Positions 343 through 50,754 of a stretch of 64,000 bases of DNA are shown piece by piece. How positions within the stretch are numbered: position 1 is the first letter of the stretch; each line of letters begins with the position of its first letter. Under the pieces are notes generated by a model. The model was not told the origin of the DNA. It saw only the letters and a program-made list of their open reading frames with translations, and searched no databases. Source of the DNA: Gemmobacter aquaticus (GTDB lineage: Bacteria > Pseudomonadota > Alphaproteobacteria > Rhodobacterales > Rhodobacteraceae); the NCBI RefSeq assembly GCF_007859075.1, contig NZ_VOAK01000026.1, forward strand, positions 1 through 64,000. Direction: 5' to 3'. The position numbers were made by a program, and so were the translations under genes.

Positions 343-360
343 TGCTCTGCCCCCCGGAGC

Positions 361-1287
361 TCATCCAGCTGAAACCAGAGCCGGCTGGTGACAATTGCCC
401 GCTTGTGCGGAGGGGGCAATGGGCGAACGGCGGAACGCTTCCGTTTCGTGGAGCCGATCGCCCATTGCGGCGAGTAGGGCGGCATAGGCCGCGGGGGTCT
501 GGTAACCCAAGGCCGAATGAGGCCTTTCAGCGTTGTAGTCGGCCACCCAGGCGGCGATGACGCTGCGGGCGTGGTCGAGGCTGAAGAACAGCGTCTCGTT
601 CAAGAGCTCGTCGCGCATCTTCGAATTGAAGGCCTCGCAGATCCCGTTCTGCATCGGCTTTCCCGGCGCGATGAAGTGCCAGGGCACGCCCGTATCCTCG
701 CTCCAGGCCAGTATCGCGTTGGAGGTGAACTCGGTCCCGTGGTCGGAGACGATCAGGCCGGGCTTGCCGCGCCGGGCGATCAGCGCCGTCAGTTCCCGCG
801 CCACGCGGCGGCCCGAGATCGAGGTGTCGACCACGGCCGCCAGACATTCTTTCGTGACATCGTCGATCACGTTGAAGATCCGGAACCGCCGCCCCTGGGC
901 GAACTGGTCATGCACGAAGTCGACCGACCAGCGCGCGTTCGGCGCGGCCACCGTCAGGAGCGGCGCCCGCGTGCCCGTCGCCTTCTTCCGTCCCCGTCGC
1001 TTGCGCACCGACAGGCCCTCCTCTCGGTAGAGCCGCTGGGTCTTCTTGCGGTTCACGACATGGCCCTCCCGACGCAGCAGAACATGCAGCCGCCGGTAGC
1101 CGAACCGGCGCCGCTCGGATGCCCGCGCCCGCAGGCGCTCGCGCAGATCGTGATCGTCGGGGCGTCGGCCGCGGTATCGGATCGAGGTCCGGTCCGTGCC
1201 GATCACGGAACACGCCCGCCGCTCGCTCATCTCGTGGCACTCCACGAGGATCGCGACGGCTTCGCGCCTAGCGGCGGGCGTCACCAC
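361..1287 (-). CDS. IS407-like transposase OrfB (DDE integrase), copy 1
   Basis: This is the catalytic subunit of the IS407-like transposase. The rve-type core shows first Asp in WSVDFVHD, second Asp in IVSDHGTEF and Glu in [14 protein letters not shown], followed by the C-terminal [15 protein letters not shown] typical of the family. It has no strong start of its own and overlaps the end of OrfA in the -1 frame around GCGAAAG (near 1290), so it is probably made as an OrfAB fusion by programmed -1 frameshifting, as is known for IS3 elements. The frame runs intact to its stop at 361, so the element may still be active. Confidence 0.9.
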
Positions 1288-1547
1288 TTTCGCGACAGGA
1301 GGTCCTTCAGCGCAGCCTGGTCGAGCAGCGACTCCGCCAAGAGCCGCTTCAGCCGAGCATTCTCCTCTTCCAGCGCCTTCAGCCGCTTCGCGTCCGACAC
1401 CTCCATCCCGCCGAACTTGGCTTTCCAAGTGTAGAACGTCGCGCTGCTGATCCCGTGACGCCGGCACAGCTCCGCCGTCTTCGCACCCGCCTCCTGCTCC
1501 CGCAGGATGCAGATGATCTGCTCTTCCGTGAACTTCGATCGCTTCAT
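1281..1547 (-). CDS. IS407-like transposase OrfA (helix-turn-helix), copy 1
   Basis: A protein of 88 residues starting [12 protein letters not shown]. It has an N-terminal helix-turn-helix ([20 protein letters not shown]) and a following leucine-zipper-like stretch ([17 protein letters not shown]), the standard IS3-family OrfA layout for end binding and dimerisation. It ends LLSRKW and stop, overlapping OrfB. It is identical to the frame at 50424-50690. Confidence 0.92.
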
Positions 1548-1611
1548 CGTCCGGTCCTCTCCTTGGGCCGGACTCTAGCATCAGATGGAGGAGTTATCGG
1601 GGGTCAGAGCA

Positions 1612-1640
1612 CTGTTCCCCGCACCCGCGGGGATGAACAT
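1612..1640 (+). CRISPR. Orphan type I-E CRISPR repeat remnant abutting the IS end
   Basis: Starting at the first base after the IS, 29 bases match the widespread type I-E repeat, with the palindromic core TTCCCCGCACCCGCGGGGAT followed by GAAC. The last two bases are AT instead of the usual CG, as often seen in the final degenerate repeat of an array. No second repeat occurs at the expected distance of about 32 bp, and no cas gene is visible. I infer that the IS or a deletion next to it removed the rest of an array. Confidence 0.7.
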
Positions 1641-1839
1641 AGCCAGATCGGTATCACATCCTGCGCAACGATTTTAGCATTACATTACATAACTATCCTT
1701 AGAGGATTTCGAATTCACGGAGGGATTTTAATAGGCGTATCCCCCCATCGCAATGTAGTTCGTCATGAAAAAAACTCCACCGCGTTGAAATGTGGTGATC
1801 TGCCGCAACACTGCACCAAGTTGAGGCAGTATGCTGTCT
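1641..1839. other. AT-rich intergenic stretch without a recognised gene
   Basis: This 199-bp stretch lies between the CRISPR remnant and the stop of the membrane protein gene. It is richer in A+T than the surroundings. I see no repeat, convincing reading frame or terminator here. Confidence 0.5.
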
Positions 1840-3501
1840 CTACTGGCATTCTGGCATGCTGCTCAGAGGGCTCATGGGCTCCGCGCGCAAGGTGAGTGTG
1901 AGCGTAGACCAATGCCCAAAGTGTGATTGTTTGCTCACATTTTCGATATCCTTGGCGGTTTGATCGTGGCCAATACGGAACATAGTGCTGACGGTGTGCT
2001 GCAGTCCCTTGGAATTGCCAACCCTCTCAAGGACATCCATCTTTCCTCCACCTCCAAAGAACCTATTTCTATGTATCCTGAGGTGCTGTTCAATCGCGAT
2101 AGAGAAGGTTACAGGCAGATTGGTCCGGGCAGTAAAGTTTGGGTTAAGGTAGATATTGAAGCCATTGATCTCCGTGGCATTAGTCTTCGCAACGTCGATT
2201 TTTATTCCGCCAATATACACGTTTCCAGAGACTTTCCGATCTGCGCGGTTCTCCGTTGGCAGGTTCCCTTTTATTTCTGCCGAAGATACCTTCACTTCAG
2301 TAGCCTTCTTCAGGTTCTCCTCAAGTTCTTGGACCAATGGTCCAAGAGATGGATGTCCATGGTATCCAGCGATTTCGCTACGCAGCGCTTCAATGGCTAG
2401 GGGTTTTCTCTCCCTTAGGTTTTCGCGCATGGGTTCGAATTTCTCATACAGCCGAGCCGCAACCGCACAGGTCTCGGCGTTACCCTCACCGGAAAGTTCT
2501 CGCAAAGTGAAGTCGTGTTTCTGAACGAATTTCGCCGAGCTTTTTTGGACTGCAACAGCGCGCTCAGCTAGAGCCTGCTCGAGCGACTTTCTGTGGGCAT
2601 TTTTCTGGTCGTCCACCATGCCTCTTAAGTCGCTTTCAAACTCTTCACGATTCCAGTATTCGTCCAGCTTTACAATGCCATAGTCTGCAACAATCCAAGC
2701 GCCGAGCCCGCCTGCTGCTGCACAAAGTCCTGCACCTGGACCTGCCCACGAACATAAAGCTGCGCCGGCGCCAGTGCCTCCTAGAACTGTCGCTAGCTTG
2801 CCACCTGTCTTTGCCCCGGCTTTCATCGCAAGTTTGGCTCCGATCTTCTTCGCCATAACCTTAACCATGGGCTTTAATGCCAACCCAGTGCTTAGCGCCG
2901 CAGTAGTGGCTAGCGGAGCAGTGATCCGCATCCGCGCCACTGCGTCTCCGAGGACCTGGCGTGTCAGCGGCCCTGTGTGAATCCCATTCTGTTCAGCATT
3001 CTCAGGTAGAGCTTGCTGAAATTCGGAGCTGAACAGTGTGTCCATCTTGGTGTGCATGCTGGCAAGCCGCACGTCCAGGCCCGCGAACAGAGTATCCTGG
3101 AGCTTTCCGCTCATATTTCCGAGCGCGGCTTCGGAAAGCTCGGCGTATTCGCCAAGAACTGTGTAATGGAAGTTCGCATAGGTCGGGATGGCATCATAGA
3201 CGGGCTCGTAGGCGGCGTTAAGCAGTGGATCGATCTGGCTTGTGACTGCTTGCAGTGCAGCTTTGTTTGCGGTGTTCAATAATTCTTGAAGTTCAGTGGC
3301 GCTTGCCTCAGCAGGTGCTGGAGGCTGGCTGCCTTCTGCGGCGACAGTTGTGGTCGCACCGCTGTCGCTTAGGTTACGAGTAGTCGCCGCGATGCCGAGA
3401 ACGAGGCTAAGAACTGCCATCATAATGATGCTACCCCAGAACCAACGTGCAAGGTTAGGTCCTTTTCTTCGCTCAGCAGATGTTTCTGTGCTGTCTGTCA
3501 T
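1840..3501 (-). CDS. Uncharacterised membrane-anchored protein, last gene of the GTPase operon
   Basis: A protein of 553 residues that I do not recognise. There is a short charged N-terminus, one membrane segment at about 20-40 (FWGSIIMMAVLSLVLGIA), a polar linker, then a helical region. A glycine/alanine-rich hydrophobic stretch at about 215-275 could insert in a membrane, and a charged helical region and a beta-rich C-terminus follow. It overlaps the upstream membrane gene by 4 bp (ATGA), so the two are translationally coupled. Base composition is clearly more A+T-rich than in the GTPase genes upstream, suggesting a different origin. The architecture resembles an envelope-anchored effector or scaffold, but that is inference only. 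Confidence 0.75.
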   Translation of the reverse strand: MTDSTETSAERRKGPNLARWFWGSIIMMAVLSLVLGIAATTRNLSDSGATTTVAAEGSQPPAPAEASATELQELLNTANKAALQAVTSQIDPLLNAAYEPVYDAIPTYANFHYTVLGEYAELSEAALGNMSGKLQDTLFAGLDVRLASMHTKMDTLFSSEFQQALPENAEQNGIHTGPLTRQVLGDAVARMRITAPLATTAALSTGLALKPMVKVMAKKIGAKLAMKAGAKTGGKLATVLGGTGAGAALCSWAGPGAGLCAAAGGLGAWIVADYGIVKLDEYWNREEFESDLRGMVDDQKNAHRKSLEQALAERAVAVQKSSAKFVQKHDFTLRELSGEGNAETCAVAARLYEKFEPMRENLRERKPLAIEALRSEIAGYHGHPSLGPLVQELEENLKKATEVKVSSAEIKGNLPTENRADRKVSGNVYIGGIKIDVAKTNATEINGFNIYLNPNFTARTNLPVTFSIAIEQHLRIHRNRFFGGGGKMDVLERVGNSKGLQHTVSTMFRIGHDQTAKDIENVSKQSHFGHWSTLTLTLRAEPMSPLSSMPECQ

Positions 3502-4265
3502 TCTGCCACCTTCAAAATGTGAGTGTCGATAAACTGATTAAGTATGACAGCTGATCGACAAAGAACAAAACTGAACAATGCCACATCCAAGCTAAACAGA
3601 GCGCTAAAGATCGGATAATCGCGAAGCTGAACAACCGCCCATAGTTTTATTGCCTCGTATCCATATGGAATGGAGAGAAAGCCGGCGATCCATCCGCCTC
3701 GCTCGGGAAGATTGCTCAATCCAATTTGCACAGCCTCAACAAAATCCGCCTGGAGCATTTCATGGGGCATCGGTGTGGATGTCCAGGTTGTAAGTGCGAT
3801 TACAAGAATCAAGGGCAATGCGACCGACCAAGAGACCAGCGATGTTGCTAGCCCGCGTGCGAAAGGTTCATGGAAGTGGCGTGCGAGATACCGCTGGCCT
3901 CTGGAAAAGAGGCCAGCCGACAGAAAAAAGGCTACAAGCATTATCGAAGCGTCGACGACAGAGGCATCTAGTGCTTGCCATGCGAGGAGTGTAACCGCGA
4001 TACATGTGAACCCGGCTGTTACTAGGAATGCCCTCACGTTGCCCTGAAGAATCCGCTCCAAGGGGGATTCCCTGCGCAGTGCAACATGCAGCCAAGCTCT
4101 CCAAGGAGACAGAGTCAGAGGCCAGAATCCGATCCATATTCCGACAGCCAGCGGCGCTAAGGCCAGAATGGCCCAGTCGCTGTAAATGTAGCTTAGACGC
4201 CATAAGTACAGTGAAAGCCCGGCGAGCGCAGTGGCGGCGAAGGCGTTAGTAATTGAACGGCGCAT
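3498..4265 (-). CDS. Uncharacterised polytopic membrane protein
   Basis: A protein of 255 residues from the ATG at 4265, preceded by AAGGAAAGG at good spacing; the frame extends to 4289, but that start has no comparable ribosome site. There are about six hydrophobic segments (SLYLWRLSYIYSDWAIL, LVTAGFTCIAVTLLAW, IMLVAFFLSAGLF, SVALPLILVIALTTW and two near the C-terminus) with no soluble domain. No family is recognised. It sits between the GTPase gene (60 bp upstream) and the anchored protein (4-bp overlap), so it probably acts in the membrane with them. A+T content is higher than in the GTPase genes. Confidence 0.75.
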   Translation of the reverse strand: MRRSITNAFAATALAGLSLYLWRLSYIYSDWAILALAPLAVGIWIGFWPLTLSPWRAWLHVALRRESPLERILQGNVRAFLVTAGFTCIAVTLLAWQALDASVVDASIMLVAFFLSAGLFSRGQRYLARHFHEPFARGLATSLVSWSVALPLILVIALTTWTSTPMPHEMLQADFVEAVQIGLSNLPERGGWIAGFLSIPYGYEAIKLWAVVQLRDYPIFSALFSLDVALFSFVLCRSAVILNQFIDTHILKVAE

Positions 4266-4325
4266 GATTGCCTTTCCTTGAATGAACAAGGTCGAAAGTT
4301 CTGCGATGCATCTCTCTCGACCTGC

Positions 4326-5870
4326 CTATCCGCCCCCAACCAAACCCCTCCGCACCAATTGTGCCAGCCGACCCACGCCACCGGTCCCACGGCGCAGCTC
4401 GGCCATTGCGGTCGACGATCGGGCACGGCCTTCCAGGCGGCGGCGGTTACGCTGGACCATCAGTGCCTCGGCGGCATGGGTGGTCAACATGCTTTCCAGG
4501 AGGGGTAGGTTCCACTCCGGCGCCTCGACCGAGACGGGCAGCACCAGCCGGCTATCCATCTCGCGCCCGATCTCCGCCACCATATCCGCAAGCTGCGTGC
4601 GGGCGGCGTCGGGCAGGTCGTGCTCGGCGAATGGCCAGCCCGGAACCAGCAAATCGACAGCGGTAAGGGCGATGATGACTGGCGGTCGCCTGCGTGTGGG
4701 ATCGGTGTCGAGGGCAGCTTCAAAACGTTGCAGCAGCGCCGCGTCAGGCGCACGCGCCGGGCGGTTTGCGCGCATCACCCACAGGATCATGTCGCACTGC
4801 ATCATCTCGGACAACATGCGGTCTTCGGCAGCGCGGCTGCCGTCAAGACCCTGGCTGTCGATTACCTTGAACTCCATCCCTCCGATCGTCAGATCATGGC
4901 GCATGAGACCATCGGTCGTGGGCGCCATGTCGGTCTCAGTCAGGTCCTCGGCCGCCAGCGCGTTGACAAGGCTCGACTTGCCCGCACTCACCTGCCCGAC
5001 CAAGAGCAGACGCAGCGGCACGTCTGGTTCGGCAATGCTGCGAGCGTCAGTCGCTTCACTGGCAAGCTGGATCTCCAGCAGTTCGGCATCGGTAAAGCGC
5101 AGTGCGCCCGAATGTAGGTCGATGGCGGCACGGGCGACCTCTTCCAGCACGACGCGCTGCGCGGTGGTGCTGCCCACGAGCTTCAACGTGTCAGTTGTTC
5201 CAGAAATGATCAGGTTCTGCACCTCTTGCGCGATGCTGACGATGGGCGAGGTCATCATACGCTTGGCGCGCCACATCCACGATGCCGCCGATGAGCCATA
5301 CTGGAACCAGGCGCGGTTTTGCCACAACCAGAACAGGGTGCGCAGCGAGATCGTGTCAGAGAAGGGCACCGTGTCGCGCAGGTCTTGCCTCAGGCGTGTC
5401 AGGATCCTGTCTGCCAGCAGCAGTGCCTCGGGGACCGAGAAGTCCAGTGCCTTGCGCTTACCGCCTGACAACCTGTCGGCGGCGAGGTCGAGCACCTCGA
5501 AGGCCATGGGGGACAGCTGGGGCCAAGCGACGGGCTCGGACAGGCGTTCCGCGATGGTGGCAGAGATTGCCTTGTAGGCGCGCGCCTCGGTCTCGGTCCA
5601 TTCCGGGTTGCCCGCGACCAGCGGCCCCGCATAGGGCGCCGGTTCTTCCTTCGCGCGGCGCTTGCGGCGGATATGCGCGATCACTCGGAGAATACGCGCG
5701 AGGCCAAGCACGGTCGCGGTGGCGACGACAAAATGTAGAAGATAGCCCTGCTCTCCCAGCCAGACGAAACCGAGCACCATCGCCGCCGCGAACGGCAGTA
5801 GGTAAAGCACCAGAGAAATCAGTGCCTGACCCCGCAAAAGGCTACCTAGGATGGGCTGAAGGCTACGCAT
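4326..5870 (-). CDS. Membrane-anchored Era/dynamin-like GTPase
   Basis: A protein of 514 residues. Two membrane segments lie near the N-terminus (about 17-60), followed by a basic stretch (RRKRRAK), a helical region, and a GTPase domain from about 285. The G1 loop is GQVSAGKSS (292-300), G3 is DSQGLDG (338-344), and the G4-like motif is unusual: TAVD instead of NKxD. The fold is that of the Era/dynamin-like GTPases associated with membranes. The start overlaps the end of the second GTPase gene by 8 bp, so the two are coupled and may form a hetero-oligomer. Paired bacterial dynamin-like GTPases are known in phage defence (Eleos/LeoA-LeoBC), but orthology to these is not shown here. Confidence 0.85.
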   Translation of the reverse strand: MRSLQPILGSLLRGQALISLVLYLLPFAAAMVLGFVWLGEQGYLLHFVVATATVLGLARILRVIAHIRRKRRAKEEPAPYAGPLVAGNPEWTETEARAYKAISATIAERLSEPVAWPQLSPMAFEVLDLAADRLSGGKRKALDFSVPEALLLADRILTRLRQDLRDTVPFSDTISLRTLFWLWQNRAWFQYGSSAASWMWRAKRMMTSPIVSIAQEVQNLIISGTTDTLKLVGSTTAQRVVLEEVARAAIDLHSGALRFTDAELLEIQLASEATDARSIAEPDVPLRLLLVGQVSAGKSSLVNALAAEDLTETDMAPTTDGLMRHDLTIGGMEFKVIDSQGLDGSRAAEDRMLSEMMQCDMILWVMRANRPARAPDAALLQRFEAALDTDPTRRRPPVIIALTAVDLLVPGWPFAEHDLPDAARTQLADMVAEIGREMDSRLVLPVSVEAPEWNLPLLESMLTTHAAEALMVQRNRRRLEGRARSSTAMAELRRGTGGVGRLAQLVRRGLVGGG

Positions 5871-7773
5871 TGCTCAGTCCTTTCAGCGCATCGGCATATC
5901 GGGTGCGTAGGGCCTCGACGTCCACGGGCTTGCCTGCGCGCAGCTGGAACATCCACCAGGCGGCGGCGCGACCAAGCGCCCAGGTCGAACCGAAACCCCA
6001 GCCTGCGCCCAGAACCGGGCCTGCCGTCTGGCCAATCACCGGGATGAGCGAGACAAGCTGCCGGCTGACAAGTCGGAGCGCCTGCCCGCCAACGACGCTG
6101 ACGCCGAGCGCGGTTGCCAGTGCGGCCAGCTTGCTGCGGTCCCAGTCGATGCCGTAGCGGGTGGCCAGTTCGGCCAGCATCCGCGCCTGCAGGACGGGAA
6201 CCGAGGCCGCACCGACCAGAGGAACCGGCACCGCCCCACCGGCCGAGGCCATGCCGGAATAGCGCAACACCAGACCACGGTTGCGCAGGAACTCCGCCTC
6301 CTCGGCATCGGTCGCGCTCTGGCGATCGAGAAACAGCGCGACCGAAGGAAGGATGCCTGTCAGCGTCTCGGCGAGTGCGGAAAGGTCGGCGCTGTCAGGA
6401 TTGCCCAGGTCGAGCTCGACCGAGGGTAAGGGCTCTCCCCAGGCGGTATCCAGGCGCGACTGGTTGGCGTGGCGGACGCGGGCGCGCGCCTCGGGATCAG
6501 CGACAAGATCGGGCGCCGTATGCACCAGCAGGGCAGGCAACTTGCGGCCGCGCCGGGCAAGCAAAAGCGCCTCTGCGACGGCTCCCTGAACCGGATCGTC
6601 CAGTCGCGCCAGCACCAGTAGGACATGCGCGGCATCATGGCAGGCTGCCAGATCCTCGGCCGGGTCATAGGCGATTTCGCCTAGCCCACGGGTATCGAGG
6701 AAGCGCATCACCGGTTCTGCCGGCGGGTAGTCGAAGGCGAGCGAGGTGCGCGTGCAAGGCACGAAGCCATTGCCGATCTCGGCTGCGCTGGCGCCGGTCA
6801 TTGCCCGCACGAGCGAACTTTTCCCCGCGCCGGTCTTGCCCAGCAACCAGACCACCGGCACTGGCGGCGCGGGTTTCGCCACGTCCTCTGGCGGGTCCAC
6901 CTCGGCAGGTGCCTTCCCCGCCAGTTTGCCCCATATCCAGCCCGGCGTTTCGGCAACGCTGCTGGCAAGGCTTCCGACCCCATCCGACGCGGCACCGACC
7001 AGCTTGCCGACCGACCAGGGGGCCGCGTCGCGGAACACCTTGCCAATTCGGGCGATGGCGGCCGACTCGGCCTCGGAAACTTGTCCGTCAGCCTCGGCAA
7101 TCTCGGTCAGGAAGGTGACGACTTCGGCAGTCATCGCATCATAGTTGCAGTCCGGGTTCTCGCGCTTGAAGTCGGCGAGCGCGCGGGCGATCCCCTCTAT
7201 GCTGGCGTCGTCGAGACCGGCTTCGATCAACGGCAATGCGCGCGCGACATAGTCCGGGTCAAGTCCCCATTCCTGCACGAAATAGTCCCTGATCGCGGCT
7301 CTCTCAGTCTCGTCAATCTGCTCGGCCTCACGCGCGACCATCAGGGCGAGGGCGCCGATCAGGTCAAAAAGCGATGCGCCCAGCAGATCAAGCGGCGTGG
7401 TGATGAAGCGCGGCACCTTTTGGACGCGGCTGCCCTCATACCGGCGCAACAGGTGGATGACCCCCCACCCTGCAGCCCCCGCCGCCGTCGCGGCACCCAC
7501 GACCCAGCCAACGGGCGTCACCGCGGTGACGAGGCCAAGCCCGGTGATCCAGCTTCCGAAGAACGCGCTGGCAACCGTGGTCGAACTGGCGGCAACCCCG
7601 CCAGCGGCTGCGACACCCGTGACCTGCCAGAGCTCGCCTAACGTGCGTGTGGCCTTCAATGAGGCGTAAGCGTCCTCGCCAATCGCTAGTTTCGCCTTGA
7701 AGCGCATCGGATCGGCCACAACCCTTGTCAGTCCTTCGAGGGTTGCAGCGCCCTGCCCGTCTATCTTCCGCAT
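5863..7773 (-). CDS. TerB-like/GTPase/DUF697-type membrane protein
   Basis: A protein of 636 residues from ATG 7773, one base after the stop of the upstream gene; the frame reaches a TTG at 7782. Domains in order: hydrophobic segments at about 50-110; an acidic helical TerB-like domain at about 150-250 (FLTEIAEADGQVSEAESAAI); a GTPase domain with G1 GKTGAGKSS (about 312-320) and G3 DTRGLGE; and a C-terminal hydrophobic region (SLIPVIGQTAGPVLGAGWGF) like the DUF697/YcjF tail. Membrane-binding GTPases with such tails act at the inner membrane. Together with the adjacent GTPase it forms the core of the operon. The exact role is unknown. Confidence 0.85.
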   Translation of the reverse strand: MRKIDGQGAATLEGLTRVVADPMRFKAKLAIGEDAYASLKATRTLGELWQVTGVAAAGGVAASSTTVASAFFGSWITGLGLVTAVTPVGWVVGAATAAGAAGWGVIHLLRRYEGSRVQKVPRFITTPLDLLGASLFDLIGALALMVAREAEQIDETERAAIRDYFVQEWGLDPDYVARALPLIEAGLDDASIEGIARALADFKRENPDCNYDAMTAEVVTFLTEIAEADGQVSEAESAAIARIGKVFRDAAPWSVGKLVGAASDGVGSLASSVAETPGWIWGKLAGKAPAEVDPPEDVAKPAPPVPVVWLLGKTGAGKSSLVRAMTGASAAEIGNGFVPCTRTSLAFDYPPAEPVMRFLDTRGLGEIAYDPAEDLAACHDAAHVLLVLARLDDPVQGAVAEALLLARRGRKLPALLVHTAPDLVADPEARARVRHANQSRLDTAWGEPLPSVELDLGNPDSADLSALAETLTGILPSVALFLDRQSATDAEEAEFLRNRGLVLRYSGMASAGGAVPVPLVGAASVPVLQARMLAELATRYGIDWDRSKLAALATALGVSVVGGQALRLVSRQLVSLIPVIGQTAGPVLGAGWGFGSTWALGRAAAWWMFQLRAGKPVDVEALRTRYADALKGLSNA

Positions 7774-7774
7774 G

Positions 7775-8206
7775 TCAGGCAAGCAGGCTGGAGAGTTTCA
7801 CTTCGAGATCCCCCAGCCGATCTGACCAGAGCGGGTCACGCAGGTCGCTCAGTGCGCCCACGGTCAGGCCGTAAGTCACAAGCAGGGGTTTCAGAAACAC
7901 TCCAATGGCCGCGCCGATCACGGGAAACCCTGCGATCAGTGCCGCGACCACAACCGCTACCACGGTCCCGAAGATTGTGCCCGGAAAGGCCTGCACCACG
8001 GCAAGTGCGAGCGTCAGGATCTTGCGACCCAGATTGACCACGAACTCCCCAGCCTTCACTGTCACGGCCGCCAGATCCATCAGCAGTGCCTTGGTATCGG
8101 CCGACAGCGACATCCGGTCGAGGGCATCGGCAATCTTGCGCAAAGGCATCGCATCGTTGATGTCGCGTAACAGGGCATCACGATTGTTGACGGTCATCTC
8201 GGTCAT
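7775..8206 (-). CDS. Small membrane protein, first gene of the GTPase operon
   Basis: A protein of 143 residues starting MTEMTVNNRDALLRDINDAM at 8206, preceded by AAGGACCG; a GTG at 8251 would add 15 residues. A soluble helical N-terminus is followed by two close hydrophobic helices (ILTLALAVVQAFPGTIFG, VVAVVVAALIAGFPVIGAAI). I recognise no family. Its stop is one base from the start of the TerB-GTPase gene. As the first gene of the operon it may be a membrane adaptor for the GTPases. Confidence 0.75.
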   Translation of the reverse strand: MTEMTVNNRDALLRDINDAMPLRKIADALDRMSLSADTKALLMDLAAVTVKAGEFVVNLGRKILTLALAVVQAFPGTIFGTVVAVVVAALIAGFPVIGAAIGVFLKPLLVTYGLTVGALSDLRDPLWSDRLGDLEVKLSSLLA

Positions 8207-8502
8207 CGGGGCGGTCCTTGAAATCAGATGCTCGGTTACTGGGACATCCACCGGAAATGCGGCAGATTTTCGGTGACATTACGGTTGCTTGGCGCGGGGA
8301 TGACGGTCAAGCACAACTCGAAGATGGGGGCGCACCGCGTCAAAAAGTGTCATACCTGCTCTTGGCAGCCAATATGAACAGAAGTTCGCCCCCTGCCCCG
8401 CACATACACTGTGGTGCGCGCGGCCTTACGCAACTCATCGCAGCCTATTGATATCTCCGCCAAAACCGCGCAACCATAGGGAAAGTCAGACCCAATGGTG
8501 CC
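8207..8502. promoter_or_regulatory. Divergent promoter region between GTPase operon and HEPN-WYL pair
   Basis: This 296-bp non-coding stretch separates two oppositely transcribed units and must hold both promoters. I could not pick convincing -35/-10 pairs or an operator by eye. The WYL regulator encoded at 9168 is the obvious candidate to bind here. Confidence 0.4.
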
Positions 8503-9150
8503 ATGCCTCACCACGATCGCCTGAAAGCCCGCCAGCGCGCCCTGCGAGAGGGGTTTTCATCCGATTTCGGCCTGCGGATCCACCGCGCCATCAGCTGGAT
8601 CGGCCGGGCCGAGCAGGCAAGCGGTGATCTGGATGCGGCTTTCGTCTTCTACTGGATCGCCTTCAACGCCGCCTATGCGCAGGACCGAGATCCAGTGGCG
8701 GAGCGGGATGCATTCCGGGGCTTCTTCTCGCAGCTGTCGCGCCTCGACAAGGAGCACCGCATCCATTCCGAGGTTTGGACGGCATTCTCAGGCCCGATCC
8801 GGCTGTTTCTGGAAAACCGCTATGTCTTTGCGCCCTTCTGGCAGCACCAGAACGGTGTCGATGGCTATGCCGACTGGGAGGCGCGTTTCACTGCCGCCAA
8901 GTCCCGCTTCCATGCTGCGCTTGGCCAGCGCGATGCGGTGCTGATCCTGTCGATGCTCTTCGATCGGCTCTATGTGCTGCGCAATCAAGTCGTGCATGGT
9001 GGCGCTACCTGGAACTCGTCTGCAAACCGCGACCAGCTTCGCGATGGCACGAGGATTCTTGGAACACTCTTGCCCACCATCGTCGATCTGATGATGGACC
9101 ACCCTGCCGAGGACTGGGGTCGCCCGTGGTATCCCGTCGTCGCTGACTGA
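8503..9150 (+). CDS. Apea-like HEPN domain protein
   Basis: A protein of 215 residues that is mostly helical. The diagnostic HEPN motif RxxxxH is present near residue 165 (YVLRNQVVHGGATW), after a helix with FYWIAFNAAYAQ. Many HEPN proteins are metal-independent RNases, often toxins or effectors in defence systems, with the Arg and His forming the active site. It is transcribed away from the GTPase operon and followed after 17 bp by a WYL regulator, so the two probably share a transcript. Whether it works with the GTPases or only with the WYL protein cannot be told from sequence. Confidence 0.8.
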   Translation: MPHHDRLKARQRALREGFSSDFGLRIHRAISWIGRAEQASGDLDAAFVFYWIAFNAAYAQDRDPVAERDAFRGFFSQLSRLDKEHRIHSEVWTAFSGPIRLFLENRYVFAPFWQHQNGVDGYADWEARFTAAKSRFHAALGQRDAVLILSMLFDRLYVLRNQVVHGGATWNSSANRDQLRDGTRILGTLLPTIVDLMMDHPAEDWGRPWYPVVAD

Positions 9151-9167
9151 GCCGCCAGGAAACCCAC

Positions 9168-10148
9168 ATGTCCTATGCCAAGGCCCATGACATCCTGAAG
9201 CTCGCCGACTTCGCCCGCGCCCGGCACCGTGGCGTGACTCTGGAGGAGATCCGCGACGAGTTTGGCGTGAGCCACCGCACCGCGCAGCGGATGACCGACG
9301 CGCTGGAGTCGCTGTTTCCCTACGCGGTGAACATTCTTGAGGATGACGACCGCCGCCGCCGCTGGACCATCGACTCGGTCCCGCTGGCTGCGCTCCGGCT
9401 ACGCGGCGATACCGAGCTTGCGGCGCTGGAGATGGCGATCGAGCGGTTGCGCGTCGATGGGGACCTGCGCGAGGCCTCGGCGCTCTCTGCCTTGCGCAAC
9501 CGGCTGCTCGCGGCCCTGCGCCCACAAGACGCCCGGCGCGCCGAGGCGGATGCCGAAGCGCTGCTTGAGGCACATGGCATGGCGGCGCGTCCCGGCCCTG
9601 TGGTTGAGGTGGATCCCGACCTTGCCGAGTTGATCGCCAGTGCGCTGCGCGGCCCGTTCGTGATGGATATTACCTACAATGACGAACGCCGCCGGGTTGA
9701 ACCCTATGGCATCCTGATTGGGGCGCGGCGCTATCTGGTAGCCCGTCAACCGGATCGACCTGATGGGAGGATGCGCTACTTCCGGCTCGACCTGATCCGC
9801 GATGCGCTGCTGGTCGAGGAAAGCTTTGCCCGCGACCCGAACTTCAGCCTGCGCGATCACGCCGCCCGCGCCTTCGGAACCTGGCAGAACGACGCGGAGT
9901 ATGGCGAGGTGATCTGGCATTTCACGCCAGAAGCCGCCGCACGGGCCCGCGAGTGGCGTTTTCATCCAGCGCAGGTTCAGCGCGACCTGCCCGACGGCGG
10001 GCTCGAAGTGCGCTTTCATGCCGGTGGCTGGCTCGAGATGACCTGGCACCTCTACCAGTGGGGCGCCGAGGTGACGGTGATCGCCCCGCCCCAGTTGCGC
10101 GCGATGGTCGATGGACATGGCCGCACGGACTTTCCGGTCCTGCCGTGA
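9168..10148 (+). CDS. WYL-domain transcriptional regulator
   Basis: A protein of 326 residues. The N-terminal helix-turn-helix (GVTLEEIRDEFGVSHRTAQRMTDAL, about 22-45) is followed by a WYL domain at about 165-230 (YNDERRRVEPYGILIGARRYLVA, then RYFRLDLI) and a C-terminal WCX-type part. WYL proteins are ligand-sensing regulators that commonly control defence islands. A second WYL protein on the same unit (24237-25208) has the same layout, with VRFHAGGWLEMTWHLYQW here matching VRFRAGGRQEMQWYLARW there. It probably autoregulates the divergent region before the HEPN gene. Confidence 0.88.
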   Translation: MSYAKAHDILKLADFARARHRGVTLEEIRDEFGVSHRTAQRMTDALESLFPYAVNILEDDDRRRRWTIDSVPLAALRLRGDTELAALEMAIERLRVDGDLREASALSALRNRLLAALRPQDARRAEADAEALLEAHGMAARPGPVVEVDPDLAELIASALRGPFVMDITYNDERRRVEPYGILIGARRYLVARQPDRPDGRMRYFRLDLIRDALLVEESFARDPNFSLRDHAARAFGTWQNDAEYGEVIWHFTPEAAARAREWRFHPAQVQRDLPDGGLEVRFHAGGWLEMTWHLYQWGAEVTVIAPPQLRAMVDGHGRTDFPVLP

Positions 10149-10279
10149 TATTCGCGTTTTGTTCTTGTTGCAATCCGGCGCCGCTTGCGGCCCAAACCCG
10201 GTATGACAGCTTTTGACGCTGGCCGCACGCTGAGCCGGCGCGTCAGGCCCCTGCCCCGGCACTTGCGGTATGCGGTCAG

Positions 10280-10300
10280 TTATCCACAAGCTGTGGATCA
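10280..10300. promoter_or_regulatory. DnaA-box-like inverted pair upstream of repA
   Basis: TTATCCACA (10280-10288), a perfect DnaA box, is followed after AGC by TGTGGATCA, a one-mismatch box on the other strand. The pair lies about 100 bp before repA. It may influence replication control or the repABC promoter. Confidence 0.55.
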
Positions 10301-11572: not shown

Positions 11573-11585
11573 AAGGGGGGCTACG

Positions 11586-12616: not shown

Positions 12617-12622
12617 ACCTCA

Positions 12623-43017: not shown

Positions 43018-46000
43018 TCATGGACTTGCGTCCAGACCAGCCTGCCAGGCCCGGCAATGCCCGAGATACTCGCGGGCATCCTTGCTCAGCCTTGCGATTC
43101 CGCAGAGGCGCGCGAGCTCCAGCTCTGGATCCTCTGATGATGCAAGCCTCTGTGCATGCACGTCGATCAGGGCAGCAATCTCCGTGCGCGATATGTCGCG
43201 CAGGGCACGCTCCCCCATGCCGCGGAACGGGATGCGATCCACGATACTGCCCTTGGCCCAGACAAACCGCACACCGTCTTCATCCGCCAGATCGAAGGCC
43301 GAATGCAATTCTGCGATCCGGGCCTGAATGCGGCCACCGGTGCGCTGCCAGCCATGACGTTGCGCAACCATGCGGGCAAGGTTCGCCTCGGTGAGTGGGG
43401 CATTCTCAGCGACGATCTGGTGCAGCAACGCAAGCAATGTTGGCGTATAGTCTGCATCGAAGAACCGCTCAGGACTGACCGTGCCTTGTGCGGCTCTGGT
43501 GGTCGCGTCCAATAGGGCGGACGCGTCGATCGGAGCGGACGCGAAGTGCGGGGTATCATCATGAGGAATGCTTTCCATTGCCGACATGACCTGCGCCTCG
43601 TCTACCACATCTGCGATCTTCTGAACGGCCTCGGCCCGCAGGGCGCGATCAGATTCCAGTGCAGCGCGAAGCTGACCGTCGATCCGCTCCAGTGTGGCCT
43701 GGGGTGCGCGGAACCAGTCGGTCGACCAGATGCGCAGGATGGTCCATCCCAGCCCTTCCAGCACCGCTTGCCGGATGCGATCGCGGTCGCGCGCGGTAGC
43801 AGAAGAGTGATAGCGCGCACCGTCACACTCCACCCCGGCCAACCAGACGCCAGCATGATCTGGATGACGCACGCCAAGATCGATGCGGAAGCCCGAGACG
43901 CCGATCTGGCTGTGAACCTCCCATCCTTTCAGGGCCAGCGCATCGCGCACGGCTTCCTCGAACGGCGATTCAACGGGGCCAAGCGAACCGCTGTCCTGTG
44001 CGGCCAGCGCGACCGCCCCACGGTTGGCGAAATCGAGGAAGGCCTTGAGATCGGCCACCCCGCGGCCGCGGGCGCGACCGATGTCGATCTGGTCGGCTGT
44101 GACCGACGAAAACACATGCAGTTCCGACCGCGCACGGGTGACTGCCACGTTCAGCCGCTTTTCGCCGCCATCACCATTCAACGCGCCGAAGTTCATCGTC
44201 AGCTTGCCTGCCTGATCGGGTCCGAAGGTGATCGAGAACAGCATCACGTCCCGCTCGTCGCCCTGGATATTCTCGAGGTTCTTTACGATCAGCGGCTCCT
44301 CACGTTCATCCGAGAAGAACCATTCGAAATCAGGGGTCGCCTTGCGCTCGGCATCAAGAAGATCGAGGATCAGCCCCTGCTGCTGCGCGTTGAAGGTGAT
44401 GACGCCTAGGGTGGGGCGGCAATCCTCCGGGAGTTTCAGCCATTCGTTCAACCGCTTGCGGATGAACGTGACGATCGCGCGTGCCTCGTCGGGGTTGGTG
44501 CGCCCTTGGCCGCGCATGTAGGTGCCCGCGACCTTGTGCAGACGCACCGCCTGTCCCGAGGCATCTGGCGAAGGGAAGGTGACCAGACCGCCATCATAGT
44601 AGAAATGGTTGGAAAAGGCGATCAACGCCTCGTCCCGGCTGCGGTAGTGCCAGTTGAGCCGATGCGTCGGGATGCCGGCGGCCGACACTTCGTCGAGGAT
44701 CGAAGGCATGTCCTTCTCGAATTCCTCTACGCCGGGCATGTCGTCAGATGCATCCTCGCTGCGCCCGAAGAAGTTTGTGGGCGGCAGCTGCTTGGGGTCG
44801 CCCACAATAATCGCCTGCCGCCCGCGCGCGATTGCGCCGATCGCGTCCCAGGTCGAGATCTGCGAGGCCTCGTCGAAGATGACCAGATCGAACTGCGCCT
44901 GTCCGGCGGGCAGATACTGGGCCACCGAAAGCGGCGACATCAGAACGCAGGGGGCAAGTTTTCCGAAGGTTGTGGGCATGTCGCCGATAAGGCTGCGGAT
45001 CGCCTTCGTCGGGCGTTGCAGTCCAAGCTGATGGCGCAAACCACCGAGTTCAGAGTTCCGTGGAACGTCGTCTCGGCGGGGGAGATCGTTTCCTAGCCGG
45101 CGCATCACCTCCGAGGATGCAAGGCGCGCCATCGCATCATCCAGTTCGCGGAACCTGCGGATCAAGGCGTCGTGCTGCCAGTGGGAAAAACCGCGCAGAC
45201 AAGGCTCGGCATCCATCGCAAGGCGTAGCCACCATGCCATGTAGGCCTGCTCAAATGCTACGGCGGTATCGGCGAGGTCCGCCTTCGCTTCTAGCGCACT
45301 GACCAGCGGTTCGAGACCCGCTGCGATCGCCCGCGCGCGGCTGTCGCGCCATTTCAACCAGTCGCTGAATCTGTGTTGCAAGGACTCTAGCCCTCGCAGC
45401 AGGTCTGCGGCTTCTGGCCCAGGATCGCCCCCAAGTTCTTCGAAGCGCGCGCGCGCCGCCGTGACCATGGCATCGGCGGTTTGCAGCGCGGCCAGGAGCG
45501 GTGCGAGGTCGCCACCTGCGGCCGCTGCAAGCACAGGGCGATGTGCCTCGAGCCGGGCAGCCGGAATTCCTGCACCCTGGAGATGACGCTCAAGCGCAAG
45601 GAAGGCTTCGGCGGCGTCCAGCTCGGCCCGAAGCTGTTGAAGGTCGCTGCCTTCCTCGGCGAAGCCCGGTACGACACGCAGCGGAGATGCGGCGATATCT
45701 GCAAGGGCCCTGCGCAGTTGCTTGAGTGCCGACAGATCGCGCGCCGGGTCCGCTTTGCCTGTGCTGGCATAGGTCTGCAACAGCTTGGTCACCTTGCCTT
45801 TCGCCATGCCGGCAAAAGGCCAGGATTTCGCTTGAGCCTCGCGCCACTGCAGCTCCAGCGCATCCAGCGGCATGTCGGGCAGACCGCTGTCTGGATACTG
45901 TGCAGCAAGCGTGGCGCGGGCTGCCTTGGCCTGTGCGATTGTGGCCTCAAGCGCGTCCACGCCCAGTCTGAGGGCGGCAAGCGATGTCAATGCCTCTTCT

Positions 46001-48810
46001 GATACTCTGGGCTTGCCCAGACGTTGATCCGCAAGCCATACCAGCGCTGCCGCGACACCGGGTGCGTCGGCTTCGTCGGGACGCAGGCCAAGTCTTTCGC
46101 CCAAGCGGTGCCGTGCCATCCGTGCCTCGGTCATAGACTGGCGCAAGGACTTGGCGGCTTCCAGATAGTTGTCCTGCCAGCCGAAGGACCACTCCCCCCG
46201 ATCCAGCAGCGACAGCGGTCCTTGCGGGTCAAGGTCGGCAACGATGCCATGGCGCGTGCCAAGTTCTGCCGCCAATCCGCGCAAGTGCCGCCAGCTTGCC
46301 TGATCATGGCAGTCCTTGTTGTCGAAGTGCAGCGCAAACCCTGGAACACCACCCGCCACTTTACCGATGGCCTGATAAACGCTGAAACCCTGCGTGCCCG
46401 GACGATGCAGGGCATCGACATAGGCGTTGAGCTCATCTCGGGTCAGGCGCAAATCCTCCGCAATGCGTACCCACTCTTGCGCCGAGGCTTCAGTGGCGCG
46501 CTCCCAGGAGCGGCCAAGCTGCGCCAGCACCTTCTTGCGATCCGCCTTGTTGGAGTGCAACTCCAGAACCGCGTCGCCAAGGCCATGTCGCTCCAGTCGC
46601 CGATGCACCACATCAAGTGCCGCCGACTTTTCGGCTACGAACAGCACGGTCCGACCCCGGCCCAATTGATCGGCGATGATGTTTGTGATCGTCTGGCTCT
46701 TGCCGGTGCCGGGCGGGCCAATCAGCACGAAGTCATGCCCCGCGCCTGCCGCCAGAACCGCCGCCAGTTGTGAACTATCCGCCGGCAGCGGCGCCAGGAT
46801 GTCTGCCGGGGCATGCTTGCGGTCAACGTCTGCCGGACGGGGAAGCGGATTGCGGCTGCCCGGGAAGACTTCGGTCGGATTATCGACAAGATGCGCAACC
46901 AGCCGACTTTCGCGCAGGCTATCGGTGCGATCCACCAGGTCTTTCCACATCAGGTACTTTGCGAAGGAGAAGGTCGAAAGCGCGAACTCTTCGACGACCT
47001 CGAACCCCGCTACATCGCGCACGCGCTGGCGCAGGATCTCCATGATGCGATAAATGTCGATGCCACTTTCATCGCGGGGCAAATCGCCTTCAAGTTCGGG
47101 AATTCGCAGCTCGAAATCCCGTTTCAGCAGCTCCAGAAGAGTGGAGTTGATGCGAACCTCATCTTCAAGTTGGCTCAACCGGAACTCCGACTGGGCCGAG
47201 CGCCGCTCGAGCTTCGCTGGCAACAGAATGAGGGGTGCGCGATAGGTTCGCGTGTCGCCCTCGGTACGTTTCCAGCGCAAGAAGCCCACTGCCAGAAAAA
47301 GCGTGTTCGTTCCGCCCTCGGCGAGGTCGCTGCGTGCCTTCCTGTAAAGCTCTGTGAGACGGGTCGTCATGTCGCGCGACGTCAAAGGTACCGCAATCTG
47401 CCCGCGATCAAAGGCGTCACGGGCCAGATCTATTTCGATCTGGCGTGCCTCTTCGGGCGGCAGGTCGCGCCCAGTTGTCGCGTTTTCGTCCTTCAGCGCA
47501 AGAAGCCGAAACTGCTCGCCATCCGCCAGCCTGTCCTCGGCGCGAGAGATGTCAGGGCAGAGCATTGACACCGCGCCCTTGGTGTCGCGGAAGTTCAGCA
47601 ACCGATTGCTGAGCGACAGATCGAGAAGTTTGCGTTGCCAGCGCTCGATACGCCCAAGCGCGGTAGTTGGCGTCTCATCGGTTATTTCGCCGGGCAGCAG
47701 CCCGAGATCGAGCGGTCGGGGCAGCGCGGCCGGCGCTGCGGTGATCGCATCTGCTGGGGCGCTCTCGATCTGGCGATGGCTGGCCAGCGGGCGGATGCGC
47801 GCCGCACGGGCGCGGTTGATGTCCACCGCCTCAACGAATTCGGCCTCTCGCGCCTCGGACAGGCGATCCCTGCCTGCATCCACGGCCTGTTGAAAGCCTA
47901 TGGCGGGACGCTTGGTGACAAGTGTGGTTTCGAGCGGCACAAATTCGCGCGCGACCGAAGCCTTGCGCACCGTAACCACGTCAGTCTCGACCAGCCTGCC
48001 GAAGTCCTTCTTGATCAGCCAGACGCCTACCCAGGCATGGCCCTGTGAGAACAGCACCGCAGCATTCAGCCCGGCTGCCTCAAAAGCCGCTGCCAGCAGC
48101 AGGGTGCTGTCAAGGCAGGTGGCGAGGCCCTCGGCGCATATGCGTTCAGGGTCGCGCACTTTCTGCCCGATACGCTCGAACGAAGCGGGTGGAACGGCAT
48201 AGGACAGGCCAAGCCCGGTCGCGGCGGACCAGATAGCACCGGCGAGCATCCAGACCCGGCCCGCATCTCCAGTTTGATAGCCGTCAATCGCACCAGATTG
48301 TCCTGCTGCTTCCAGAAGCCGCGATGCTTCTTTCAGGATGCGAGCGACGTAGGGTTGATTGGGCGACACATAGGCCGCGAGGATGTTGTCCATTTCAGCC
48401 AGCCCGCCCCACTCGTCACGGGCAAGCATCTCGATCGGGTGCATGACAGTCACATCTTCCAGCCCGTCCGCCGACAAGTGAAACGCAAGCTGGCCGAATT
48501 CGGCCTCGTCAAGCCCGCTGAGCATGACGGGGTCAAGCGGGGTTTCAAGATCACTGATCCGTACGCTGCTGCCCGCGGCGATCCGGTCGATGACCCAGGT
48601 CTTTTCGCGCCGGATTGCCGGGCGAGCAGTCAAATGGAGGCGAACACCTTCGACGACATCAGGGCCGAGATTTTCGATGCTCAGTTCCTTGATGACCGCG
48701 ACACCGTTTTGCGCCGTCGCGAAGTTGACCTTGGCCGCCGCAGATATGTGCAAAACAAGTCCGCTGGCTTGGACGGCATCGACCATAGGAATCAGGTCAA
48801 GATCTTGCAT
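43018..48810 (-). CDS. DUF4011-helicase-Vsr-DUF3320 defence protein with transglutaminase-like domain
   Basis: A protein of 1930 residues from ATG 48810. Domains in order: a beta-rich N-terminus; a transglutaminase-like domain with a Cys-His-Asp triad (Cys232 in ATCLDSTLL, His258 in QGHAWVGVW, Asp277 in VETD); DUF4011 at about 385-640 (WQRKLLDLSLSNRLLNF); and a superfamily 1 helicase with Walker A GPPGTGKS (698-705), Walker B VIFDEASQIS and GDPKQLPP. A Vsr/DUF559-like nuclease (GFRIDLGVRHPD, AGVECDGARYHSS, RDRIRQAVLEGLGW, ILRIWSTDWF) and a DUF3320-type C-terminus follow. Single proteins with DUF4011, helicase and Vsr domains are known anti-phage systems. It is alone on its strand. Confidence 0.9.
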   Translation of the reverse strand: MQDLDLIPMVDAVQASGLVLHISAAAKVNFATAQNGVAVIKELSIENLGPDVVEGVRLHLTARPAIRREKTWVIDRIAAGSSVRISDLETPLDPVMLSGLDEAEFGQLAFHLSADGLEDVTVMHPIEMLARDEWGGLAEMDNILAAYVSPNQPYVARILKEASRLLEAAGQSGAIDGYQTGDAGRVWMLAGAIWSAATGLGLSYAVPPASFERIGQKVRDPERICAEGLATCLDSTLLLAAAFEAAGLNAAVLFSQGHAWVGVWLIKKDFGRLVETDVVTVRKASVAREFVPLETTLVTKRPAIGFQQAVDAGRDRLSEAREAEFVEAVDINRARAARIRPLASHRQIESAPADAITAAPAALPRPLDLGLLPGEITDETPTTALGRIERWQRKLLDLSLSNRLLNFRDTKGAVSMLCPDISRAEDRLADGEQFRLLALKDENATTGRDLPPEEARQIEIDLARDAFDRGQIAVPLTSRDMTTRLTELYRKARSDLAEGGTNTLFLAVGFLRWKRTEGDTRTYRAPLILLPAKLERRSAQSEFRLSQLEDEVRINSTLLELLKRDFELRIPELEGDLPRDESGIDIYRIMEILRQRVRDVAGFEVVEEFALSTFSFAKYLMWKDLVDRTDSLRESRLVAHLVDNPTEVFPGSRNPLPRPADVDRKHAPADILAPLPADSSQLAAVLAAGAGHDFVLIGPPGTGKSQTITNIIADQLGRGRTVLFVAEKSAALDVVHRRLERHGLGDAVLELHSNKADRKKVLAQLGRSWERATEASAQEWVRIAEDLRLTRDELNAYVDALHRPGTQGFSVYQAIGKVAGGVPGFALHFDNKDCHDQASWRHLRGLAAELGTRHGIVADLDPQGPLSLLDRGEWSFGWQDNYLEAAKSLRQSMTEARMARHRLGERLGLRPDEADAPGVAAALVWLADQRLGKPRVSEEALTSLAALRLGVDALEATIAQAKAARATLAAQYPDSGLPDMPLDALELQWREAQAKSWPFAGMAKGKVTKLLQTYASTGKADPARDLSALKQLRRALADIAASPLRVVPGFAEEGSDLQQLRAELDAAEAFLALERHLQGAGIPAARLEAHRPVLAAAAGGDLAPLLAALQTADAMVTAARARFEELGGDPGPEAADLLRGLESLQHRFSDWLKWRDSRARAIAAGLEPLVSALEAKADLADTAVAFEQAYMAWWLRLAMDAEPCLRGFSHWQHDALIRRFRELDDAMARLASSEVMRRLGNDLPRRDDVPRNSELGGLRHQLGLQRPTKAIRSLIGDMPTTFGKLAPCVLMSPLSVAQYLPAGQAQFDLVIFDEASQISTWDAIGAIARGRQAIIVGDPKQLPPTNFFGRSEDASDDMPGVEEFEKDMPSILDEVSAAGIPTHRLNWHYRSRDEALIAFSNHFYYDGGLVTFPSPDASGQAVRLHKVAGTYMRGQGRTNPDEARAIVTFIRKRLNEWLKLPEDCRPTLGVITFNAQQQGLILDLLDAERKATPDFEWFFSDEREEPLIVKNLENIQGDERDVMLFSITFGPDQAGKLTMNFGALNGDGGEKRLNVAVTRARSELHVFSSVTADQIDIGRARGRGVADLKAFLDFANRGAVALAAQDSGSLGPVESPFEEAVRDALALKGWEVHSQIGVSGFRIDLGVRHPDHAGVWLAGVECDGARYHSSATARDRDRIRQAVLEGLGWTILRIWSTDWFRAPQATLERIDGQLRAALESDRALRAEAVQKIADVVDEAQVMSAMESIPHDDTPHFASAPIDASALLDATTRAAQGTVSPERFFDADYTPTLLALLHQIVAENAPLTEANLARMVAQRHGWQRTGGRIQARIAELHSAFDLADEDGVRFVWAKGSIVDRIPFRGMGERALRDISRTEIAALIDVHAQRLASSEDPELELARLCGIARLSKDAREYLGHCRAWQAGLDASP

Positions 48811-49022
48811 GACGAATCTCTTGAAAAACAACGTGTCCCGGAATGCCTGTCAGAAGAGCCGGTCCTCATGATGTCATGCAGATGGCGGCAATGTGACGAG
48901 ATGATCATGTGTGTTTTGGGTCGATCCCGGTATCGGTTTCCTCGGCCCGTTTAGACCAGCCACTGAGGCGCCCCTAGATTTATAGACACGTTGCCCCCTT
49001 GCTTTGAGGCTGGGAGGCCGAG

Positions 49023-49260
49023 ATGGGGACAAGTTACTACTGCGACGAGTTCAAGCGTGATTTGGAGCAGCAGATCACGGTTCGGGGGTACCTTGTCAGC
49101 GAGGCTGCCCTGCGTTTGGGGGTGAGTTCGCGTTCCCTATACAAGTGGCTGAAGCTGTTTGGAGAACCGATGGCTAAAGCGCGAGCTGGCGCGAGTGACC
49201 GAGGAGCGCGATATATAAAAACTGTCACGGGCCGCGGCCCGCCTGTGCGCGGTATAAACG
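49023..49260 (+). pseudogene. IS3-type OrfA remnant
   Basis: The frame MGTSYYCDEFKRDLEQQITV with SEAALRLGVSSRSLYKWLKLFGEP is an IS3-family OrfA helix-turn-helix. After FGEP the frame is lost: the sequence for KRELARVTEERDI follows in another frame and then breaks up in A+T-rich DNA. It lies about 225 bp before the second IS407-like copy. It belongs to the inside of the IS-bounded unit and is a decayed, probably older, element. Confidence 0.75.
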
Positions 49261-49485
49261 GCCGTGCTGCGCTTGATGGCCTGAAGGGCCGTTGTCGATT
49301 GCTTCTTGTCCGTTGAGCTATGTTCGGAAGAACCGAAAAGATGGAAAGCAGGAGAACGCAAACATCCGGTTCCTCCTAGGGACAGAAAAAAGAAGAGAAC
49401 GGCCAATCGCCCCCGGGAAGGAACAGAAAAGAAAGAAAGGCATCGCCTCCTGAACAGAAGTTGAAAACAGGAAAACAGTCGTGAC
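49261..49485. other. Purine-rich non-coding stretch before IS copy 2
   Basis: The plus strand is strikingly rich in A and G (GAACGGCC..., AAAGAAAGAAAGG at about 49429-49441). No gene or repeat is recognised. It ends at GTGAC directly against the IS. Confidence 0.5.
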
Positions 49486-49503
49486 TGCTCTGCCCCCCGG
49501 AGC

Positions 49504-50430
49504 TCATCCAGCTGAAACCAGAGCCGGCTGGTGACAATTGCCCGCTTGTGCGGAGGGGGCAATGGGCGAACGGCGGAACGCTTCCGTTTCGTGGAGCCGA
49601 TCGCCCATTGCGGCGAGTAGGGCGGCATAGGCCGCGGGGGTCTGGTAACCCAAGGCCGAATGAGGCCTTTCAGCGTTGTAGTCGGCCACCCAGGCGGCGA
49701 TGACGCTGCGGGCGTGGTCGAGGCTGAAGAACAGCGTCTCGTTCAAGAGCTCGTCGCGCATCTTCGAATTGAAGGCCTCGCAGATCCCGTTCTGCATCGG
49801 CTTTCCCGGCGCGATGAAGTGCCAGGGCACGCCCGTATCCTCGCTCCAGGCCAGTATCGCGTTGGAGGTGAACTCGGTCCCGTGGTCGGAGACGATCAGG
49901 CCGGGCTTGCCGCGCCGGGCGATCAGCGCCGTCAGTTCCCGCGCCACGCGGCGGCCCGAGATCGAGGTGTCGACCACGGCCGCCAGACATTCTTTCGTGA
50001 CATCGTCGATCACGTTGAAGATCCGGAACCGCCGCCCCTGGGCGAACTGGTCATGCACGAAGTCGACCGACCAGCGCGCGTTCGGCGCGGCCACCGTCAG
50101 GAGCGGCGCCCGCGTGCCCGTCGCCTTCTTCCGTCCCCGTCGCTTGCGCACCGACAGGCCCTCCTCTCGGTAGAGCCGCTGGGTCTTCTTGCGGTTCACG
50201 ACATGGCCCTCCCGACGCAGCAGAACATGCAGCCGCCGGTAGCCGAACCGGCGCCGCTCGGATGCCCGCGCCCGCAGGCGCTCGCGCAGATCGTGATCGT
50301 CGGGGCGTCGGCCGCGGTATCGGATCGAGGTCCGGTCCGTGCCGATCACGGAACACGCCCGCCGCTCGCTCATCTCGTGGCACTCCACGAGGATCGCGAC
50401 GGCTTCGCGCCTAGCGGCGGGCGTCACCAC
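49504..50430 (-). CDS. IS407-like transposase OrfB, copy 2
   Basis: Identical in sequence to the OrfB of copy 1, with complete DDE residues (VDFVHD, SDHGTEF, CEAFNSK). It is probably produced by -1 frameshifting from OrfA at GCGAAAG. Confidence 0.9.
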
Positions 50431-50690
50431 TTTCGCGACAGGAGGTCCTTCAGCGCAGCCTGGTCGAGCAGCGACTCCGCCAAGAGCCGCTTCAGCCGAG
50501 CATTCTCCTCTTCCAGCGCCTTCAGCCGCTTCGCGTCCGACACCTCCATCCCGCCGAACTTGGCTTTCCAAGTGTAGAACGTCGCGCTGCTGATCCCGTG
50601 ACGCCGGCACAGCTCCGCCGTCTTCGCACCCGCCTCCTGCTCCCGCAGGATGCAGATGATCTGCTCTTCCGTGAACTTCGATCGCTTCAT
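50424..50690 (-). CDS. IS407-like transposase OrfA, copy 2
   Basis: A protein of 88 residues identical to the OrfA of copy 1 (helix-turn-helix plus leucine-zipper-like stretch), overlapping OrfB. Confidence 0.92.
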
Positions 50691-50754
50691 CGTCCGGTCC
50701 TCTCCTTGGGCCGGACTCTAGCATCAGATGGAGGAGTTATCGGGGGTCAGAGCA

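Follow-up and report, generated by a model that had tools for sequence, protein, structure and literature searches.

The 49,143-bp repABC plasmid that appears as an insertion between two identical IS copies in the window (the whole stretch of 64,000 nucleotides that was analysed) is probably a free, mobilizable circle, and its join with the host replicon was probably made by the assembly. In that case the window would combine two molecules with an IS in common: a host replicon with an IS407-group-like IS inside an IS3-type transposase gene, where GCCC is duplicated, and a 49,143-bp repABC plasmid with a relaxase that carries an identical copy of the IS. Base 1 of the window is base 1 of contig C26 (163,480 bp), i.e. 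a contig end. The features at the boundaries of the apparent insertion are as follows.

1-342, plus strand: IS3-type transposase gene, left part; its upstream part is missing, with the contig end at base 1, and 216-342 equals the end of contig C3
216-342, no strand: 127-mer common to the window and the C3 end, a fork of the assembly graph that stops exactly at the IS boundary
339-342, no strand: GCCC, left copy of the target duplication (flank reading)
343-1611, minus strand: IS407-group-like IS, copy 1, with orfA at 1281-1547 (worked out by hand) and, one frame over, orfB, whose end is at 361
49486-50754, minus strand: IS407-group-like IS, copy 2, identical to copy 1 (identity comparison)
50755-50758, no strand: GCCC, right copy of the target duplication (flank reading)
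50759-50813, plus strand: 3' end of the IS3-type transposase gene, with likeness to the other copies until about 50853

Sequence comparison of the two 1269-bp IS copies confirmed that they lie in direct orientation with 0 differences and at a spacing of 49,143 bp, as the original prediction had it, and identity beyond them extends for 1 common base leftward and 0 rightward. No full-length copy besides these two was found in the genome among the 40 of 90 first-look candidates that were scored, 10 small contigs being N. A 24-bp exact copy of one IS end is present at C24:219996-220019, where no additional match to the IS was reported alongside. Each IS encodes orfA (88 aa) followed by an overlapping orfB one frame over, which is the arrangement of the IS407 group, and the Pfam domains of its transposase are rve_3, rve and HTH_21 (integrase core). 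DNA matches over the IS in plasmid records reached approximately 72-81%, with the best in Sinorhizobium/Ensifer, among the best 20 of 88 records.

The outer flanks of the IS pair (...AACGAACGCCC and GCCCCAACATGG) both carry GCCC, while the inner flanks (CTGTTCCCC... and ...GTCGTGAC) are mutually unrelated and, as the contig lays the copies out, no target duplication surrounds either IS copy alone. As laid out, the contig displays two IS copies with direct repeats at the outer ends only, as a composite transposon would, a pattern that presupposes that the two ends are truly linked. When the host copy is taken with its own flanks, GCCC surrounds it as the 4-bp target duplication typical of the IS407 group; the edges of the plasmid copy are then TGAC and CTGT, without a 4-bp duplication. 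Joining the outer flanks with a single GCCC restores the C-terminus of the IS3-type transposase in frame (...TYNNERPNMGIGGVTPAMKLKMAA, followed by the stop). Both the rejoining of this gene and the restriction of GCCC to the outer ends had been claimed beforehand and were borne out by these readings. Elsewhere in the genome this sequence is found uninterrupted twice, at an end of contig C3 and of contig C4, so that the empty site is directly visible in sister copies of the element.

The contig ends indicate how this layout came about. A total of 34 ends could be read, from 17 of the 27 contigs, the other 10 small contigs being N. The terminal 127-mer recurs at 26 of these 34 ends, either in the last 1500 bases of contig ends or inside C26, and in every forward-strand end overlap the exact match stops at precisely 127 bases. 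The C27 pair recurs on the opposite strand, again over 127 bases, and a minus-strand recurrence of the C12 end was seen in C26 as well. No exact 127-bp partner was found for 8 of the 34 ends, the C26 start included, and their missing partners may lie in the 10 N contigs. The 250,694-bp contig C23 begins and ends with the same 127-mer in opposite orientations. A constant overlap of 127 bp points to a de Bruijn graph with k=127, and hence to short reads.

Given that the C3 end is identical to 216-342 and stops at the IS start, C26 crosses a fork of the graph at base 342, beyond which C3 runs on into the uninterrupted transposase. Furthermore, three contigs, C26, C3 and C4, break off within the IS3-type element, which indicates that the assembler left that repeat unbridged. 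The topology of the IS differs from that of the IS3-type element in that one of its exits, the plasmid, returns to the IS and forms a simple loop. Assemblers of this type walk a simple loop a number of times that is set by depth. In the published description of Unicycler, depth and graph connections guide the copy number (PMC5481147). In an assembly at k=127, both IS copies would become a single edge of the graph, with the plasmid as the loop IS-interior-IS on the path left flank-IS-right flank; by walking this loop once, the assembler would have written the plasmid into the host contig. Either state, with the loop written a single time, results in exactly this contig.

Word multisets were used to compare the two layouts, the integrated one of the contig and one in which the host and a free 49,143-bp circle each have a single IS. 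At all 11 word lengths tested between 128 and 1271 the multisets were equal; at each of the 4 tested between 1272 and 1300 they differed, and at 1272 the difference was 2 words in each direction. Given this equality up to 1271, the two layouts cannot be told apart in a contig for which only shorter reads were used; since this contig is the product of a de Bruijn graph, integration is unestablished and the integrated layout is the path that the assembler chose. Together with the exact 127-bp end overlaps, this leaves the central claim of the original prediction, that the plasmid is integrated, unsupported, whereas its two components, a 49,143-bp repABC replicon that carries a single IS and, inside the IS3-type gene, an identical IS flanked by duplicated GCCC, are supported. 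It had also named an artefactual IS pair as what would tell against it: the placement of the pair on one molecule is most likely an artefact, but the two IS copies themselves are real under either layout. In favour of the free state it was counted that the replicon looks complete, and against it that the deposited contig has the integrated layout.

The presence of repABC, parS and a relaxase in the interior, also foreseen, was verified by Pfam and by a pattern search for parS. The features of the interior are as follows.

1612-49485, no strand: interior, 47,874 bp, which with one IS makes the 49,143-bp circle
1612-1640, plus strand: single type I-E-like CRISPR repeat, 29 bp, starting at the first base past the IS (0 expected in shuffles)
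10307-11572, plus strand: repA (Pfam, protein comparison)
11586-12524, plus strand: repB (Pfam, protein comparison)
12698-13867, plus strand: repC (Pfam, protein comparison)
13869-13884 and 13907-13922, plus strand: two identical parS-like sites, GTTGACAGCTGTCAAC (pattern search)
39945-41816, minus strand: MobA/VirD2-type relaxase (PF03432, E 2e-25)
49023-49316, plus strand: short transposase orfA-like ORF, a remnant, near the right end of the plasmid (Pfam)

The order repA, repB, repC with parS is that of a repABC plasmid, and the closest known kind are the repABC plasmids of Rhodobacterales. Of the two parS patterns used, the stricter found 2 sites against 0.05 expected and the looser 2 against 0.70, a number that 15 of 100 shuffles reach. 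The gap between repB and repC, where repABC plasmids have a counter-transcribed RNA, is 173 bp, and no Rfam match at gathering score was found in the whole window. The relaxase makes the plasmid one of the mobilizable class, and a Pfam scan of 32 interior ORFs returned no type IV secretion family. The interior also encodes a HipA-like gene and several nuclease and helicase genes. A 1937-aa protein with DUF4011, helicase and MTES_1575 nuclease domains (43018-48831) has a strong PADLOC match to the PDC-S37 and Hhe models, and a row consisting of a UvrD helicase, a PD-(D/E)XK nuclease, an HNH protein, a WYL regulator and an AAA ATPase (17486-27343) resembles a defence or repair cluster. A McrBC-like pair, an AAA ATPase and a McrBC-component protein, lies at 35747-39654, and an operon-like row at 1840-8251 encodes a pair of GTPase proteins, one of which has a TerB domain; the LeoA/LeoBC matches of this row in PADLOC are weak.

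Relatives of the plasmid were sought by comparing the proteins of 36 ORFs (35 from the interior and the IS transposase) with 13 loci (12 and a stretch of C27) at E 1e-6. RepA, RepB and RepC were the sole ORFs of the 36 with relatives at E <=1e-6, in 6 of the 13 loci; the remaining 33 had no match at E 1e-6 in these loci, which included just 40 kb of the 770-kb contig of Gemmobacter aquatilis. The nearest repABC found is on that 770,119-bp contig of Gemmobacter aquatilis DSM 3857 (RepA 96%, 391/421 residues; RepB 81%; RepC 76%) and has a parS sequence identical to that of the window plasmid; unlike the window plasmid, it adjoins thiamine genes. Positions 9168-13867 have some DNA match in 11 of 11 genus genomes, its own included, the best others being G007 (82%), G009 (76%) and G001 (78%), of which G007 and G001, of the same genus as the window genome, are taken to be Gemmobacter aquatilis and Gemmobacter caeni. 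In the plasmid collection RepC matched 2355 records, 2224 of them with at least 80% cover and all below 60% identity, which indicates that a RepC of this kind is common on free plasmids. The search for a free 49-kb plasmid, proposed as a check of the original prediction, returned no near-identical record in PLSDB: 0 of 321 records matching 343-20000 and 0 of 88 matching 26000-50754 reach 80% cover, 20001-25999 being outside the queries, and the best cover among the matches listed is 12% and 10% respectively. The relaxase gave 23 stretches that fit a pattern in GTDB contigs, of which 0 were confirmed, and 3902 records in the plasmid collection, all below 60% identity and 0 with 80% cover; in the family genomes it had a match in 16 of 394, its own included, the best-scoring other being 32% identical with at most 3 candidates scored per genome.

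A free repABC plasmid would have to share the cell with C27, a 146-kb contig with repABC that carries the only other RepC found in the genome. The two ends of C27 overlap directly by 127 bp, which makes it a circular contig. Its parS is GTTCACAGCTGTGAAC, against GTTGACAGCTGTCAAC in the window plasmid, and RepA, RepB and RepC are 69%, 36% and 42% identical between the two. Judged from these differences in parS, RepB and RepC, the window plasmid is probably compatible with C27, and no incompatibility would plainly oppose the free state.

It is possible that an intact repABC plasmid truly resides in the host replicon, perhaps reversibly through recombination between the IS copies, and that the chromosome thereby holds a complete second origin and partition sites, although this is judged somewhat unlikely. 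As one route to this state, the one that the original prediction favoured, homologous recombination would have joined a free plasmid with one IS to the identical copy that the IS3-type gene already contained; this might hold for the whole population or for some of its cells. A duplication at the outer ends only, direct IS copies with 0 differences and the layout of the deposited contig all agree with such an event. However, it is unlikely for two reasons: first, a layout without integration yields an equal set of words at each length tested up to 1271, such that the contig carries no weight; second, it would put a repABC origin and partition sites into the host replicon, which would be unusual. 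Transposition, either of the IS-flanked 50.4-kb unit as a composite transposon or by insertion of the plasmid through an IS dimer or cointegrate, would itself have made the GCCC duplication; it is very improbable, since GCCC at the outer ends only, the trace that such an event leaves, is also left by a single IS insertion, the unit is very large and the IS3 family moves mainly by copy-out-paste-in via IS circles.

The host replicon itself is probably the chromosome. In the relative G003, matches to the right side of C26 were scattered at 68-75% on the largest contig and reached 79% on the second contig, and a tRNA-Ser lies near the far end of C26. Large plasmids from different genera, with ectoine genes, match C26:120000-139999 as well, at up to 40% cover and approximately 76%, and 50755-64000 has at most 6% cover in plasmids among the matches listed. 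A 16S count, intended as a control for the collapse of repeats, gave no match in the window's own genome (9 of 14 controls had one), perhaps because the 10 small contigs are N, and was given no weight. Given that C26 matches both G003 contigs and large plasmids, its assignment to the chromosome is only probable.

Under the preferred reading, of a free plasmid and a separate host IS, the IS would have moved from the plasmid to the host after losing one duplication on the plasmid; a plasmid IS without a duplication is expected if the plasmid copy is the older donor. The CRISPR repeat at 1612-1640 has 26 of 29 bases in common with the repeat of an array of approximately 60 copies in G001:C34. It is one of three lone type I-E-like repeats in the genome at up to 3 mismatches, none in an array, the others being C5:42320-42344 and C8:28392-28416. 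The sequence downstream of the C5 and C8 repeats is common to both, and a Mob_Pre-like gene (PF01076, E 3e-6) ends approximately 100 bases from the C5 repeat, with an ORF of equal size at the corresponding place in C8. In G001, taken as Gemmobacter caeni, the stretch L157 2320-18578 of C34 contains repABC with the parS of the window plasmid and then type I-E cas genes (cas3, cse1, cas7, cas5, a Cas6-type gene and cas1) with the array of about 60 repeats, although the layouts of the two plasmids are otherwise unlike. Outside the repeat, no flank common to the window and the compared loci was found among the matches listed, and Cse1 had no match in the window's own genome in a search run without a positive control. 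The plasmid IS may have inserted in a CRISPR repeat, with CTGT as its target duplication, and the CTGT partner at the IS 3' end may have been lost by a one-sided deletion at the IS, which would explain the plasmid IS without a target duplication. That this deletion removed a CRISPR array or a former CRISPR-Cas locus from the plasmid is a fair guess and no more, drawn from one relative, G001. A similar event is described for ISPmar2 of Paracoccus marcusii (IS3 family, IS407 group; 1269 bp, 4-bp duplications), where one of five analysed insertions lacked direct repeats owing to a deletion of 15 bp at the 3' end of the IS (PMC3281130). By description, the two are alike in the length of 1269 bp and in the altered side, the IS 3' end in both.

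In summary, the case is one of ordinary biology and an instructive assembly trap: a short-read draft can show a plasmid as integrated at identical IS copies, with textbook target duplications, without support from the contig. The test used here, a constant exact overlap of contig ends together with equality of word multisets, is usable on any such claim of integration. Were the integration true, an intact repABC replicon would be maintained within another replicon.

Sulfitobacter belongs to the same order as the organism of the window. In Sulfitobacter pontiacus CB2047 a 280-kb plasmid lies in the chromosome, a state that the authors validated with reads as not a misassembly (PMC13386836). Such a report of a real integration counts against the free reading. 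What it has in common with the window is a plasmid within chromosomal DNA, here in a marine genus that is related; that case differs in its rrn-associated locus and in that the account, as excerpted, names a ParAB-like system and not repABC. It has been reported that repeats common to the DNA units of a genome prevent complete plasmid assembly from short reads (PMC5695206); the outcomes given in that report, in the part available, are fragmentation or merged bins, whereas in the window the single-loop topology yields a contig that looks complete. In contrast to the read-validated state of Sulfitobacter pontiacus CB2047, the join in the window rests on a 1269-bp repeat.
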